Source of the DNA: Phaeotremella fagi
Lineage: Eukaryota > Basidiomycota > Tremellomycetes > Tremellales > Phaeotremellaceae
Assembly (NCBI GenBank): GCA_001599715.1
Contig: BCHU01000007.1
Span: forward strand, 439,586-503,585
Direction: 5' to 3'
DNA: 64,000 nt
The first letter of the stretch is position 1, and every line of letters begins with the position of its first letter. The notes beneath the pieces were generated by a model that worked only from the letters and a program-made list of their open reading frames with translations, had not been told where the DNA came from and did no database searches. The translations under genes were made by a program, and so were the position numbers. This document shows, piece after piece, positions 57,800 to 63,986 of this stretch.

Positions 57800-59601
57800 T
57801 CAAAGAACAATCTTCATCATAACGCCCTTAGCTCTCGTTAACTGATCATAACCAAGTGTGGAAAGACTGATACCCCTTCCAGAATTCTTGACTCCCGTCC
57901 AAGGAATCGCTGGATCCAACGCATCAGCTCGATTCAAGTAGACAGTACCGCATTCAAGGTCTTCGACGAAATTGTTGAAAACTGTTAATGAATTTGGATC
58001 GGTTGGTGAGGTCCATATGGATGCTGTCTGACGTTGTTTTGTCAGTTGTTTGGGAGTTATCAGATGATATTGATGACTTACTAATCCGTAAGGTGAATCG
58101 TTCATCAACGTTAGAGCTTCTTCATCACCTTCAACTTTCATTATACCAATTACAGGTCCGAACGTCTCTTCGACCATGACGTCCATAGCTGGTGTGACGT
58201 TAATTTGGTAACTAAGCAAAAAGAATATTACTCACTGTGATCAACATTGATCAAAACTTGAGGACCGACCAATGTACTTCCTTCTTTAGCCTCTGGGAAG
58301 TTAGATTCACTGAGAACAAGCTCTGCCCCAGCAGCGACTGATAATCTCTATCAGCTTTCGTCCAAGTTCTCTAAGAGGATAGCTCACCAGCATCTTTAAC
58401 TTGTTTACGAATTCTTTCAGCTGAAGCTAAACTGACAACAGGTCCTAATGACGTATTGGTATCCATTGGGTCACCTAGTTTGTATGCTTTGGCAATTTCG
58501 ACGAACTTCTTGACGAACTCGTCGAAAATAGATGAATGGACGTAGATTCGTTCGACGGCACAACCTAAGTCTGATAAGCAGGGATCTAGGGTGAAGATCT
58601 AACAACAGCCACTCACACGATTGACCAGAGTTGAACATCGCACCTGGCAATCAGTACGGATCTGTAACATCTCCACCTACCATCAACAAGATTCTCCACA
58701 GCATAAGCTAAATCCGCATCCTCCCGAACATAAGCAGGATCTTTACCACCTAATTCCAATCCAACACCCTTGAACCCTTTAGCCTGAGCAGCAGCCTCCT
58801 GAACAGCTCTTCCGCCAGCAACACTTCCCGTGAAAGCGACAAAATCGACACGAGGATCGGCAACCAACGATTTAAGAGTGACTTCTTGCGATAAATGAAC
58901 TACCTGTAAGACGTTCGCTGGTAGATCACTCGATTGGAAGGCTGATAGAATTCGTTCGGCGGGGACTGGAGTTTGAGGTGCTGGTTTGATAATAACAGAA
59001 TTTCCCGCTAGTATCGCTGGAATTACTGAGTTGACCATACAGAGATGAGGGTAGTTCCAGGGTGAGATGACACTGGATTGATCAGTTATTTGATATGGGA
59101 CTAGGACTTACACGACTACTCCCAGAGGTTGTTTGACGATACTTCTTTTCGAAGCTTCAGTATCGGTATCGGTTTGTGGGATTGGTTTTAGACAGTCTCG
59201 AGCAATTTTGATGAGATGACGAGATCTGTACAAAGCACCTGCGATTTCACCTTTACTTGATGAGCTTGGTCTAAAAGGTTAGGCATGATACAACAATCAA
59301 TCCTCACCGTCCCATTTGAAGTGATAGATCTTCTGCCATCAGATCGGTAAGTTTCTCATATTCGACCTGTAGAGTAGAGTTGTGAGCTATTGATCTCTAT
59401 CAGCAACTGACAACAGCTTACGAGCCATTTCTCCGCGATAGCGATTCGTTCATCCAAAGGAACCTTCTTCCATGATTTTTGAGCTTTCACGGCTGAAGTG
59501 ATGACGGTGTTGAGTTCATTCTCTGATAGAAGTGGTCTTGTGCAGATTGGTTTTTGGGTGAAGGGTGAGATAGTAGTTTGGATTGAATCTTTGACTGACA
59601 T
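57800..59601 (-). CDS. NAD(P)-dependent aldehyde dehydrogenase
   Basis: Nine exons (59601-59422, 59366-59308, 59270-59112, 59072-58681, 58643-58617, 58564-58388, 58337-58236, 58188-58082, 58027-57800), 476 residues, the normal family size. Key parts: VVISPWNYP with the cofactor-site NYP, KPAPQTPVPAE, FTGSVAGGRAV (glycine motif), LELGGKDPAYV with general base E239, GQSCC with catalytic Cys at C273, and EETFGPVIGI. Start at MSVKDSIQTTISPF; upstream frame opens only with GTG. No targeting signal, so cytosolic. Closest in style to broad semialdehyde or succinate-semialdehyde dehydrogenases; substrate not determinable. Convergent with NUP82 at 93 bp and divergent from NHP2 at 217 bp. Confidence 0.92.
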
Positions 59602-59818
59602 TGTTGTTGTTGATGATGAAAGATTAGAAATAGATATAGACACAGAAGATAGATGATTCAGAGATGGAGTGAGTAATGCGGGGTAACGAAGGAATAGTAC
59701 GGGGTAATATTAAAGTATAATTCTTTTTATTTTATCCCATAAACAGAATTCTTTCTGTATGGTAAAATGAATCTAGTAGATTAGATTTCAGATAAATAAC
59801 ACCACCAACATCAACACA

Positions 59819-60745
59819 ATGGCTAAAGATCCAACACTGAAGAAGAAGAGAAAGTCAGAAGCTGCTGAATTAGATGTCGTCGAACCCGTAGCTGTACCAG
59901 CTGTAGAGGGTACGGCATCTGCTGAAGCTGTAGTTGCAGAAGTTGACGCTAAGAAAGCTAAGAAGGAGAAGAGAAAATCAGTAGCTGGTCCAGGTGAAGA
60001 AGAGAAGGTGAGTTGGTGTGATGACTCAAAGTCTCTCGTGAAGAAGGGTGGCGAAAGAGATAAAAAGCGAGCTCAACTTGGTCAGACGCAACGAGAACGA
60101 CGACTTTCCAATTCTCTCTTTCAATCTCTACAACCAGAAATAGGAAAGCTTGACTGACCATTATTCAGTCCGAATTCTACGTACCCCTAGAAGCGATCTC
60201 CCCTTTAGCCTCCCCCTTAGCCCCCAAAAAGCTTCAAAAAAAATTATTCAAAACCGTCAAGAAATCCTCTAAAAACCGTCAACTCAAAAGAGGTGTCAAA
60301 GAAGTCGTCAAAGCTTTACGAAAAGGTGAAAAGGGATTGTTACTGCTCGCGAGTAACATCACGCCTATCGATGTTATCAGTCATTTACCACTTTTGGCGG
60401 AGGAGAGTAAAGGTGTAGAGTTTGTTTGGGTTTTGAGCAAGTGCGTTTAGATTGGCGCTTTTTTTGGTGGCTGTTGGAGTTAGATGCTGATGCTGATTCT
60501 GGATTTTAGGGAGGAACTTGGTGTAGCTTCTGGAACGAAACGTGCTACTTCATGTGTACTGATTTGGTAAGTTTTTTATGAGTATCTCGAACTTGATCTC
60601 CCCTAACACCATCCACAGCTCCGCACCAGCAAAGAGAAAAGAAGGCGCCAAAGGTCCAACACCAGAAGAACTTAAAGATTGGAAAGAATCTTTAGAAGAA
60701 TGTGTTGAAGAAGTGAAAAAGCTTGAAACCGTTTCAGCTTATTAG
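59819..60745 (+). CDS. NHP2: H/ACA snoRNP protein Nhp2
   Basis: Four exons (59819-60007, 60169-60440, 60510-60566, 60619-60745), 214 residues. A lysine-rich N-terminal extension (MAKDPTLKKKRKSEAAEL) is followed by the L7Ae-type core: YVPLEAISPLASPLAPKKL, KRGVKEVVKALRKGEKGLLLLASNITPIDVISHLPLL, EFVWVLSKEELGVASGTKRATSCVLI, and a helical acidic tail. Nhp2 binds H/ACA RNAs with dyskerin/Cbf5, Nop10 and Gar1 for rRNA pseudouridylation. The extension is longer than in yeast (156 residues). Intron 1 is 161 nt, holds a candidate box C/D RNA, and stays open in frame for 49 codons. Confidence 0.9.
60014..60161 (+). ncRNA. candidate intronic box C/D snoRNA (NHP2 intron 1)
   Basis: A perfect C box GTGATGA (60018-60024) lies 10 nt from the donor and a D box CTGA (60154-60157) lies 11 nt from the acceptor. 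The flanks can pair weakly (TTGG with CCA). The intron is about three times the usual length. The internal C'/D' boxes are not clear, the 140-nt size is at the high end, and the CTGAC could simply be the branch point. Hosting of snoRNAs in snoRNP and ribosomal protein genes is well known. Confidence 0.3.
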
Positions 60746-60853: not shown

Positions 60854-63800
60854 CTAAATCATTGCCAAGATAGCTTCAGCTTGTCTAGCGATTTCCGCCC
60901 GTTCAGCAGCTTTCCTAACAGCTTCACTCAACATTCTCTCTTCTTCTTCCCTATTCCTCTCCTCCTCTTCAGCCAATTTCTGAGCCTCAATAGCAGATTG
61001 AATACTTCTCTCCATCAACAACGTATCCTCCATTCTTGCCGCCGCAGCCTCTTCCAGTTCAGCATTAGCAGCAGCCTCAGCTTCGAGACGATTCTGTTCT
61101 TCGTTGGCAGCCGCTAACGCCATCTCCATGGCTAGGGCTTGTGCCTCCTCCTCTTGTTGTTGTAATAATCCTTCTCTTACTGCCATGTCTATCGATCGGG
61201 CTAGTGTGTCGATTTTAGTTACGTTCAATGATCCTAGTGAAAGACAGCCTTCTGGTAGTAAATGAATATGACTTTTTGAAGTCATAGATTCGATTTGTGA
61301 TGGGGGTAAAAGTGTTGAGCTGAGTGATTAGTGGAGATTTAGATCATGACCTACCAATACAATCCAGTAGCTTTCCTCAGATGTATCCAAGAACCAGGTG
61401 TTTTCAATTTATTCACCAAAACATCATACAACTTCTCTCTGACACTTCTCAATCTATCCGCCATAGCTTTGATCTCAGCCAACCTAAACAATGTCAGCCC
61501 AAATAGATTGAATCGACTTACCAAGCAGGGAAAAGTTTTGAATCAGACAAAATTCGATGAGCAACATGAGCACTCCAAGGTGGTGGACGGAGATACATCG
61601 ATCGAGCGATTGATCTCAGTTGTGAATCGATTCTTTTCTTATCTTCAACATTCTGAGTCACTATGGAGACTATTGATGGTGATTCGGAATAAAGTCCCAT
61701 CATCTGACACGTCAGTGAAAAAGCTCTTCGACCTTCACTCACAGCATCGAAATTCTGACAAAGAACCACAGGCAAACCCTCCGTAACCATAGATCTCAAC
61801 GGGTGAGCATCCCGATTGGTATCGCCCGTAGCAAGTCCTTGAGTATTCATGATGAACAGAGGTATCAATTGTCTTTCCTACGAAACGTCAGTTCCTCTCC
61901 AAAAAGCCACAGAACTCACTTGAACGATCCCATTCAAAAGTCTCCATTGCGACGCAGACAATTCCGCCCCGGTAGGTATAGTACCACTAACTTGTAAAAG
62001 AACCACCGATTTAGGTAGAGCAATTTGTAAATCTTCTCTCAAACCCTCCCAATCGATTCCACCGATTTTCTTGTCGAAAAATCGATAACTCCTAATATCA
62101 AGACCACAATCTCTTAGAATCGACGTATCCTCTTCGGGAGTTGGATCTGGGATATAAATGATTTTGTTGAGGGGTAAAATGGGAAATTTGGATAAAAAAG
62201 TCGCTGCCAGACGTAAAGAACCGGTACTTGAGACTGTTTGGATGGACGCGATCTATCTGTCAATATCGTGTCAGAATTCTGACCTCACCTTTCCTTCTTT
62301 ATACACAGGTGTTTCAGCTCCATAAGCGAATTTAACACCAGCATCAAGAAACGGTTGATATCCCTGAACAGGGAGAACTTCTCTCATGTCATGTTTTAAG
62401 GTCTTCTCGACGTATCGTACGGTCGGTGGAATAAATATCTGATCGTTATCTTCTCTGAAACCTTGTAACGTCAAATTCAGTTTCACTGGATTGGGATCTT
62501 CTTCGTATGCCGAATCAGTTTGTGCAGACCTGAATGTCAGCTTGAACATCCTGTTACACTCACATATCAGGTTGAGCGAGTGGGACCAATGACCAAGTCT
62601 CTTTGATCTCAGCCAAACTAGCAGCGTCGACACCATTGGAACGACTCGCAGCGGAAAGCTGATATCAGCCATTTGAACTAGACCGCAACTCACCTGCTGT
62701 AAAACATCCAGCAACAAACTACCCTGCTGATCCTGACTCATTCCACTGATACCACCGAGAGACGTAGCATTCAAGGTAAGTTGATTCAAAGCGTTGGCAG
62801 CATCTTGTTGACCTAAATTAGCGGCTCTAGTCGCATGAATAATTGTATCCATCGCAGCAGTTGATGCTTGTTCGGGATTCATATTCGATCCTGAACGGAT
62901 CAACGATTCCAATGCTTGTACTCTTCGTCCGAGTTCGTAAGTGATTGGTACATCCGCGTTATCACTGTGATATCAGTATAATCATAACGAACAGTGACAC
63001 TCACCGTTTGCGTTTCTTCAATGGGAAAATTGGGACTTCAATACGACACATACTAGCAACACCTCGTTTGATACTATACCGTCAGCGTTGACCTAGAACG
63101 AGTTACTCACCATCGTTTGCAGGGAATGGTACGGTCACACTGATGGTTAGTAGGGAAACGCAAACATCACTTACATGTTCTATAAAGTTAGTTGAAATCC
63201 AGAAGATTTGAACTCACGTTTCTAAAAGTCAGCTCTAATCGTTAATCACAAACTTACTCTCCTGTGACATTCTTAAACACCAATATCAGCCAGACGTCTC
63301 CGAAATACAGACCAAAATCAAATGCTCACCTGTACAACTCCTAAGACATCAATCAGTGATGAAACAAAATAACAAAAACGGAGTAAAGAAACTCACAAAG
63401 TAGTCCTATTCCTCTTCCTCTTGTACCGACTCCCATCCCCAAATCGACTCTCATAATCATCGTCATCGTCAAATTCCTGACCCCCTTCTTCACCTTCAGC
63501 CTCATCTCCTTGTTGTTCAGTTTCCCTGTTACCCAGATTATCGACGAATTCCTGGACCTGTTCTGAAGTTAAGGCGGGTGGTAGGTCATCGACATTCGAA
63601 TCATCTTGAGGTTCCTGGTTATCATTGGGATCTTCGTTATCTTCATTGGTTTCGTTTTCGTTCTCGTTATCGTTGTCGTTATCGTTGTCATTACCAATTC
63701 TGGATAACGCAGCTAGATTGGCTAAAGTAGCCGGATCGAATTGTTCGAATCCATCCCCATCACCCTCGTCGACAACACCTTCATCGACGATCTCTTCCTG

Positions 63801-63986
63801 CTCCTGTTCCTGTTCTTGTTCTTGTTCTTGAACCTGTTCTCCATGTCCAAGACCATGCCCATCTGACACTTCCTCATCATCATCCCCAATGTGAACGATA
63901 GAATCGACGAAAGCTTGAATCCCATCATCCCCCTCCCCCTCTGCCGACTGGACACCGATTCCCCCAGAAACGAGATTATCGGACAT
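60854..63986 (-). CDS. Zn(II)2Cys6 transcription factor fused to an aminotransferase-fold pseudoenzyme
   Basis: Fourteen exons (63986-63397, 63340-63330, 63271-63258, 63221-63218, 63179-63175, 63139-63111, 63073-63005, 62964-62694, 62658-62564, 62529-62289, 62252-61920, 61877-61522, 61483-61355, 61319-60854), 870 residues, all phases closing. Residues 1-196 are acidic with EQ and ND/NE runs, ending in KRKRNR. The zinc cluster is C199-x2-C202-x6-C209-x5-C215-x2-C218-x8-C227, the exact Zn2Cys6 spacing, then KKRKR and a short coiled coil (LGRRVQALESLI). Residues about 374-768 follow the aspartate aminotransferase fold (DPNPVKLNLTLQGFRED, SIQTVSSTGSLRLAATFL, GLATGDTNRDAHPLR, KTPGSWIHL). The NPTG Asn is I535, the pyridine Asp is I563, the Tyr is T566, and the PLP lysine is A599. 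The last 100 residues are an Ala/Glu coiled coil. The start is 14 nt from the window edge, so an upstream extension cannot be excluded. Confidence 0.8.

Follow-up and report, generated by a model that had tools for sequence, protein, structure and literature searches.

A gene on the minus strand of a 64,000-nucleotide (nt) stretch of the Phaeotremella fagi genome (contig BCHU01000007.1, positions 439,586 to 503,585; here, the window) encodes an 857-residue protein in which a Zn2Cys6 zinc cluster is joined to an aspartate aminotransferase (AAT) fold that lacks the catalytic lysine. With slightly more confidence than doubt, we regard it as a conserved zinc-cluster transcription factor of the Tremellomycetes, in which a duplicated AAT was joined downstream and the resulting pseudo-AAT would serve as a dimer and partner-binding body. 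The frame, the family, the dead site, and the origin of the enzyme half are established at the level of sequence.

The protein was aligned with 39 relatives that represent at least three tremellomycete orders. Protein searches returned relatives in Kwoniella, Cryptococcus, Vanrija, Cutaneotrichosporon, Cryptotrichosporon, and Saitozyma, further ones in Naematelia, Dioszegia, Kockovaella, Papiliotrema, Tremellales sp. Uapishka_1, and Filobasidium, and metagenomic proteins. Each of these searches scored the roughly 8000 candidates sharing most words, and the family may extend further. The taxonomy of three relatives placed them in the Tremellales, Trichosporonales, and Filobasidiales, all within the Tremellomycetes. 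Identity to relative P0005 was 64%, and some relatives' models are named pyridoxal 5'-phosphate (PLP)-dependent transferase or aspartate transaminase.

Conservation across the relatives also extended to the linker and to stretches at both protein ends. Two metagenomic models (P0043 and P0044) hold the cluster and linker without an AAT part and stop near the LWSEVPQAEPET motif; in Filobasidium P0047, whose model starts right after the cluster, a counterpart of this motif lies directly upstream of the AAT part. Because the linker is conserved and the motif near the end of the former models matches the one preceding the AAT part in the latter, the two halves belong together. A first-pass annotation, made from the letters of this stretch, had described one fused protein, and the recurrence of the pairing in relatives bears this out. 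That two adjacent genes were wrongly joined is highly improbable in view of the conserved linker, the matching motif, and the single predicted proteins of many species, and this reading was rejected. The joined gene with both domains is not a chance product.

By splice-site reading, a single spliced gene runs from a start codon at 63986 to a stop at 60854. The first splice reading of this strand gave an open frame of 870 residues, with I535, I563, T566, and A599 where the first-pass annotation had placed them. The single spliced frame claimed there was retained, and its length was corrected. In the 870-residue model, 13 extra residues stand between FDA and MMGLY (after A599). Because they are absent from 35 of the 39 relatives, and because the corresponding 39 nt (61742-61704) carry a GTGAGT donor, a CTGAC branch point, and a CAG acceptor, they were recognized as an unspliced intron, and the 870-residue model was rejected in favor of one of 857 residues. 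Removal of this intron raised the Pfam Aminotran_1_2 score from 79.5 to 88.8 bits (cut-off, 19.7). The four relatives with extra residues are metagenomic open reading frames (P0036, P0038, P0039, and P0040) that continue as V-S or V-G directly after the same alanine, apparently by read-through into the same intron. The 14 introns of the gene measure 34 to 58 nt, and all have a CTRAY branch point 4 to 24 nt upstream of the acceptor, compared with 77 of the 458 GT..AG-like sites of the entire window, real introns counted in.

The first-pass annotation had also called the zinc cluster complete, and this held. Zn_clus (PF00172) matched residues 198 to 230 with 27.5 bits (cut-off, 21), and the six cysteines between residues 199 and 227 have the canonical spacing C-x2-C-x6-C-x5-C-x2-C-x8-C. 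They are distributed over exons of 11, 14, 4, 5, 29, and 69 nt. The residues KQH, encoded by the fourth and fifth exons, were found in P0001, P0004, P0025, P0027, and P0029, with KQQ in P0026. Exons 4 and 5 (63175-63221) could be skipped in frame, with the loss of exactly 9 nt, or three residues between cysteines 2 and 3. An exon-by-exon search of the whole genome with PF00172 returned 85 places, and the window gene was not among them.

The state of the cluster varied among the models of 32 relatives. It was intact with the KQH residues in 6; exactly three residues were missing at the exon 4/5 point in 8, one of which (P0011) was also changed upstream; and in the other 18 the cluster was otherwise broken or the model started after it, as in Cryptococcus neoformans P0024, which starts directly after the cluster. 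Pfam reported an aminotransferase and no zinc cluster in 26 of the 32, C. neoformans included. In alignment A2, which consists of these 32 relatives and one insect AAT, Zn_clus matched 7 of 33 members (E ≤ 0.001).

One explanation is that the cluster is unused in most transcripts: exons 4 and 5 would often be skipped, and the main product would be a cytoplasmic pseudo-aminotransferase modulating active AATs, for example, through mixed dimers. The in-frame loss of exactly 9 nt and the eight models short by exactly three residues at that point agree with this. We consider it unlikely, since the cluster residues, the basic flanks, and the following helix are conserved where present, P0043 and P0044 carry a complete cluster, and very small exons, which are known to trouble annotation in Cryptococcus, could account for the short models without biology. 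In the available part of PMC3990503, C. neoformans exons as small as 1 bp are described as hard for automatic annotation. The short models are therefore probably annotation errors, in which gene finders missed the tiny exons. A microexon switch, by in-frame skipping of exons 4 and 5, has a similarly small chance of existing.

The AAT part aligned over its full length to solved AATs, in line with the near full-length fold of the first-pass annotation. Among the matches listed (best 60 of 81), the best was 1ama with 236 bits, for a query that still included the 13 intron residues. The fold was also supported by a structure model of relative P0025 (single chain). The fold searches covered the AAT part only. 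GabR was not among the matches listed (best 60 of 81, best 50 of 1598, and 50 matches), which carries no weight.

The active site has been dismantled in the whole alignment. Residue numbers and roles are those of AAT, with positions placed through an intact insect AAT, and counts refer to 40 aligned sequences (the window protein and 39 relatives), some of which do not cover every position. At the position of the Schiff-base lysine, K258, no sequence has lysine (34 Ala, 4 Thr, and 2 Ser), and none of the 40 has aspartate at D222. Among covered sequences, none of 39 retained N194, none of 39 retained R266, and none of 35 retained R386; R386 is the alpha-carboxylate arginine and R266 the phosphate arginine of AAT. 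Tyrosine occupies the Tyr225 position in 12 of 40, and the window protein has T566 there. The four substitutions named in the first-pass annotation as marks of a dead site (I535, I563, T566, and A599) were thus confirmed. Where five intact AATs agree (100 positions), the family has lost 12 of the 20 in the pocket and 13 of the 80 elsewhere, and 53 of the 383 domain columns are invariant among 18 representatives. Judged by these alignments, the pseudo-AAT fold is kept under constraint while the catalytic residues are lost. A decaying pseudogene, which the loss of the tested catalytic residues save R292 might suggest, is extremely improbable given a frame open through 15 exons, the invariant columns, and the identity to P0005, and was likewise rejected.

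Classical PLP chemistry is, on the evidence of these substitutions, absent from the window protein. GabR illustrates how a DNA-binding part can be governed by an AAT body. As PLP cannot be covalently held at the usual place here, the body is either a scaffold, which we favor, or responsive to another ligand or partner. Of the roles proposed in the first-pass annotation, those of dimer scaffold, of sensor for an amino or keto acid, and of control over nitrogen or amino-acid genes are all putative. Tentatively, the emptied pocket may act as a metabolite sensor, binding an amino acid, a keto acid, or another small molecule without PLP, so that movement between open and closed subdomains would alter DNA binding or activation. 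The retained fold and R292 are consistent with such a sensor, as are nearly invariant residues that newly occupy former active-site positions, namely, E484 (N142; 39 of 40), D485 (H143; 38 of 40), and S607 (R266; 37 of 39 covered). There are also parallels in the available parts of two articles: GabR simulations in which gamma-aminobutyric acid and PLP stabilize the closed AAT domain and couple it to the DNA-binding domain (PMC6917764), and the working hypothesis that QutR is an inactive enzyme still binding its inducer (PMC10512348). On the other side, R386 and R266 are both lost, and conservation at the 21 pocket positions does not exceed that of the domain at large (mean entropy, 1.01 versus 1.10; 32% of random sets reach a value this low). 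Pocket conservation was tried as evidence for a ligand and set aside as not significant.

A genome search with the pseudo-domain as query turned up three further AAT genes, on contigs C4, C9, and C12, with lysine, aspartate, and arginines all in place (an assumed intron was taken out of the C12 gene by hand). In the tree, 18 pseudo-domains formed one group (support, 100/100), and a branch with 100/99 support set this group plus C9 and C12 apart from the remaining five intact AATs; this tree has 25 rows, only seven of them intact AATs, with long pseudo (1.55) and bacterial (2.36) branches. Identity of the pseudo-domain to the C9 and C12 AATs was about 36%. Three of the five introns within the domain, including one that immediately follows the lysine codon, share codon and phase with both of these genes, a match reached by 6 of 200,000 random placements. 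From the tree and the three common introns, the domain most likely arose by duplication of a mitochondrial-type AAT gene, introns included, and not from bacteria; the label mitochondrial-type denotes closeness to solved mitochondrial AATs. The likeness to the bacterial MocR/GabR regulators is therefore convergent, and the independent origin proposed in the first-pass annotation is upheld. The C9 (about 303-306 kb) and C12 (about 153-157 kb) genes have most intron positions in common and are apparently duplicates of each other.

For the favored transcription factor with a structural pseudo-AAT, the following course may be envisaged. A mitochondrial-type AAT gene would have been duplicated with its introns and placed downstream of a Zn2Cys6 DNA-binding unit, after which the active site would have been dismantled and the fold retained. 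The product would be a nuclear protein that binds DNA as a homodimer through the cluster, with the pseudo-AAT as a dimer and partner-binding body fixing how far apart the two zinc clusters stand. The post-cluster helix and the long C-terminal helix would assist the dimer body, and the acidic N-terminus, with the DPxTLANLAALS helix as a candidate activation motif, would recruit the transcription machinery. Three points weigh against this reading. The near-invariant residues at former pocket positions could mean a ligand. An intact cluster is present in only 6 of the 32 relatives' models, and DNA binding throughout the family would assume that the others are annotation errors. In the P0025 model, the zinc-cluster stretch (154-184) has a predicted local distance difference test score of only about 40 to 45, which speaks neither for nor against a cluster fold.

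The features of the gene are collected in Table 1. In the C-terminal tail of the window protein, no Pfam family scored above the cut-off. PV-1 (PF06637) matched 7 of the 33 A2 members (E ≤ 0.001), perhaps merely through the charged helix.

Table 1. Features of the zinc cluster-pseudo-AAT gene, in window positions
Feature	Position	Strand	Basis
Whole coding region, 15 exons, 857 residues	60854..63986	-	Splice-site reading and comparison with relatives
DPxTLANLAALS motif (residues 84-95), conserved, in acidic N-terminus	63702..63737	-	Conservation; predicted helix in folded relative
Zn2Cys6 cluster, C199 to C227, exons 2-7	63046..63336	-	Pfam and cysteine spacing
Exon 4, 4 nt	63218..63221	-	Splice model; residues KQH found in relatives
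Exon 5, 5 nt	63175..63179	-	With exon 4 gives exactly K206 Q207 H208
Post-cluster basic stretch with YELGRRVQALESL helix (candidate coiled coil; exons 7-8, coding parts)	62901..63045	-	Relatives and P0025 model
Pseudo-AAT domain, about residues 368-745	61193..62516	-	Pfam, fold matches
Codon I535, Asn194 of AAT (NPTG Asn)	61977..61979	-	Alignment
Codon I563, Asp222 of AAT (pyridine-binding)	61851..61853	-	Alignment
Codon T566, Tyr225 of AAT	61842..61844	-	Alignment
Codon A599, Lys258 of AAT (Schiff-base), final codon of exon 12	61743..61745	-	Alignment and splice model
In-frame 39-nt intron left in by the first-pass annotation	61704..61742	-	Same position and phase in two other AAT genes of the genome
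Codon R633, Arg292 of AAT	61602..61604	-	Retained in 37 of 37 covered sequences
Codon C728, Arg386 of AAT	61244..61246	-	Alignment
Charged C-terminal tail, residues 746-857, predicted long helix, conserved EDxLLMExSI motif	60857..61192	-	Relatives and model

Two neighboring genes were observed in the window. An intron-containing gene on the plus strand (59820-60745) encodes an L7Ae-type RNA-binding domain (PF01248, 56.1 bits) and is presumably Nhp2-like, and an aldehyde dehydrogenase gene (PF00171, 140.5 bits, one open frame) lies at about 58371-59605 on the minus strand.

The gene represents a eukaryotic parallel, reached by convergence, to the bacterial MocR layout, with the enzyme half dead in all relatives examined, and the system permits a direct test of what the AAT fold contributes to gene control without PLP. 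It also exposes an annotation blind spot, as exons of 4 and 5 nt fragment the DNA-binding domain and Pfam then shows an aminotransferase alone in most relatives. According to the available part of PMC4391232, the C. neoformans deletion atlas picked its factors through DNA-binding-domain prediction; because model P0024 starts after the cluster, the C. neoformans gene may have escaped that choice. As a bolder and rather doubtful proposal, the family could be a eukaryotic one-component regulator in which the MocR layout was reinvented with another DNA-binding domain and with a mitochondrial-type AAT of local origin, PLP being abandoned and a ligand or partner sensed by a rebuilt pocket, conserved across the Tremellomycetes, including human-pathogenic Cryptococcus, and hidden from transcription factor lists by the tiny exons.

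The first-pass annotation knew of no such family, and likewise we met no description of a zinc cluster with an AAT in the open-access literature, as far as listings and the beginnings of abstracts go. Nothing of the kind appeared in the available parts of PMC2705460, on oomycete domain fusions, and PMC5415576, on dual DNA-binding factors, and the main text of PMC13252557, on essential Cryptococcus factors, is without the words aminotransferase, transaminase, pyridoxal, and zn2cys6.

Among known systems, the QutR/GaaX/TanX repressors, according to the available part of PMC10512348, are fungal regulators too; they show kinship with a metabolic enzyme and are believed to lack catalytic activity. 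However, they are separate, AROM-derived repressors encoded beside a zinc-cluster activator, whereas here one protein carries a domain from an AAT. No AROM-derived domain was found in the window protein, for which Pfam up to E 1 gave only Zn_clus, Aminotran_1_2, and a sub-cut-off PV-1. A further precedent, QutA as a zinc-cluster activator with AROM pieces, is not claimed; the same part of that article supports only the QutR-type repressors as AROM-related. Mitochondrial-type AATs share the whole fold with the window domain, and the two of this genome also share three introns and about 36% identity with it; the window domain differs in being fused to a DNA-binding unit and in having lost the catalytic residues except R292. 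Like other fungal Zn2Cys6 transcription factors, the window protein has a canonical cluster, basic flanks, and a post-cluster helix; unlike them, it carries an AAT-derived domain, and PF04082 was not found in it by Pfam, though four zinc-cluster matches of a protein search carry that domain. With MocR/GabR, of the bacterial GntR family, it shares a DNA-binding domain linked to an AAT fold in one polypeptide, as described in the available parts of PMC6917764 and PMC4944035. In contrast to these regulators, it has a Zn2Cys6 cluster in place of the winged helix (no GntR domain by Pfam up to E 1), neither the PLP lysine nor the aspartate, an AAT domain of fungal mitochondrial-type origin with common introns, and an additional acidic N-terminus and long C-terminal helix. 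By sequence it belongs to the Zn2Cys6 class; it is perhaps MocR-like in its working, and not a MocR.
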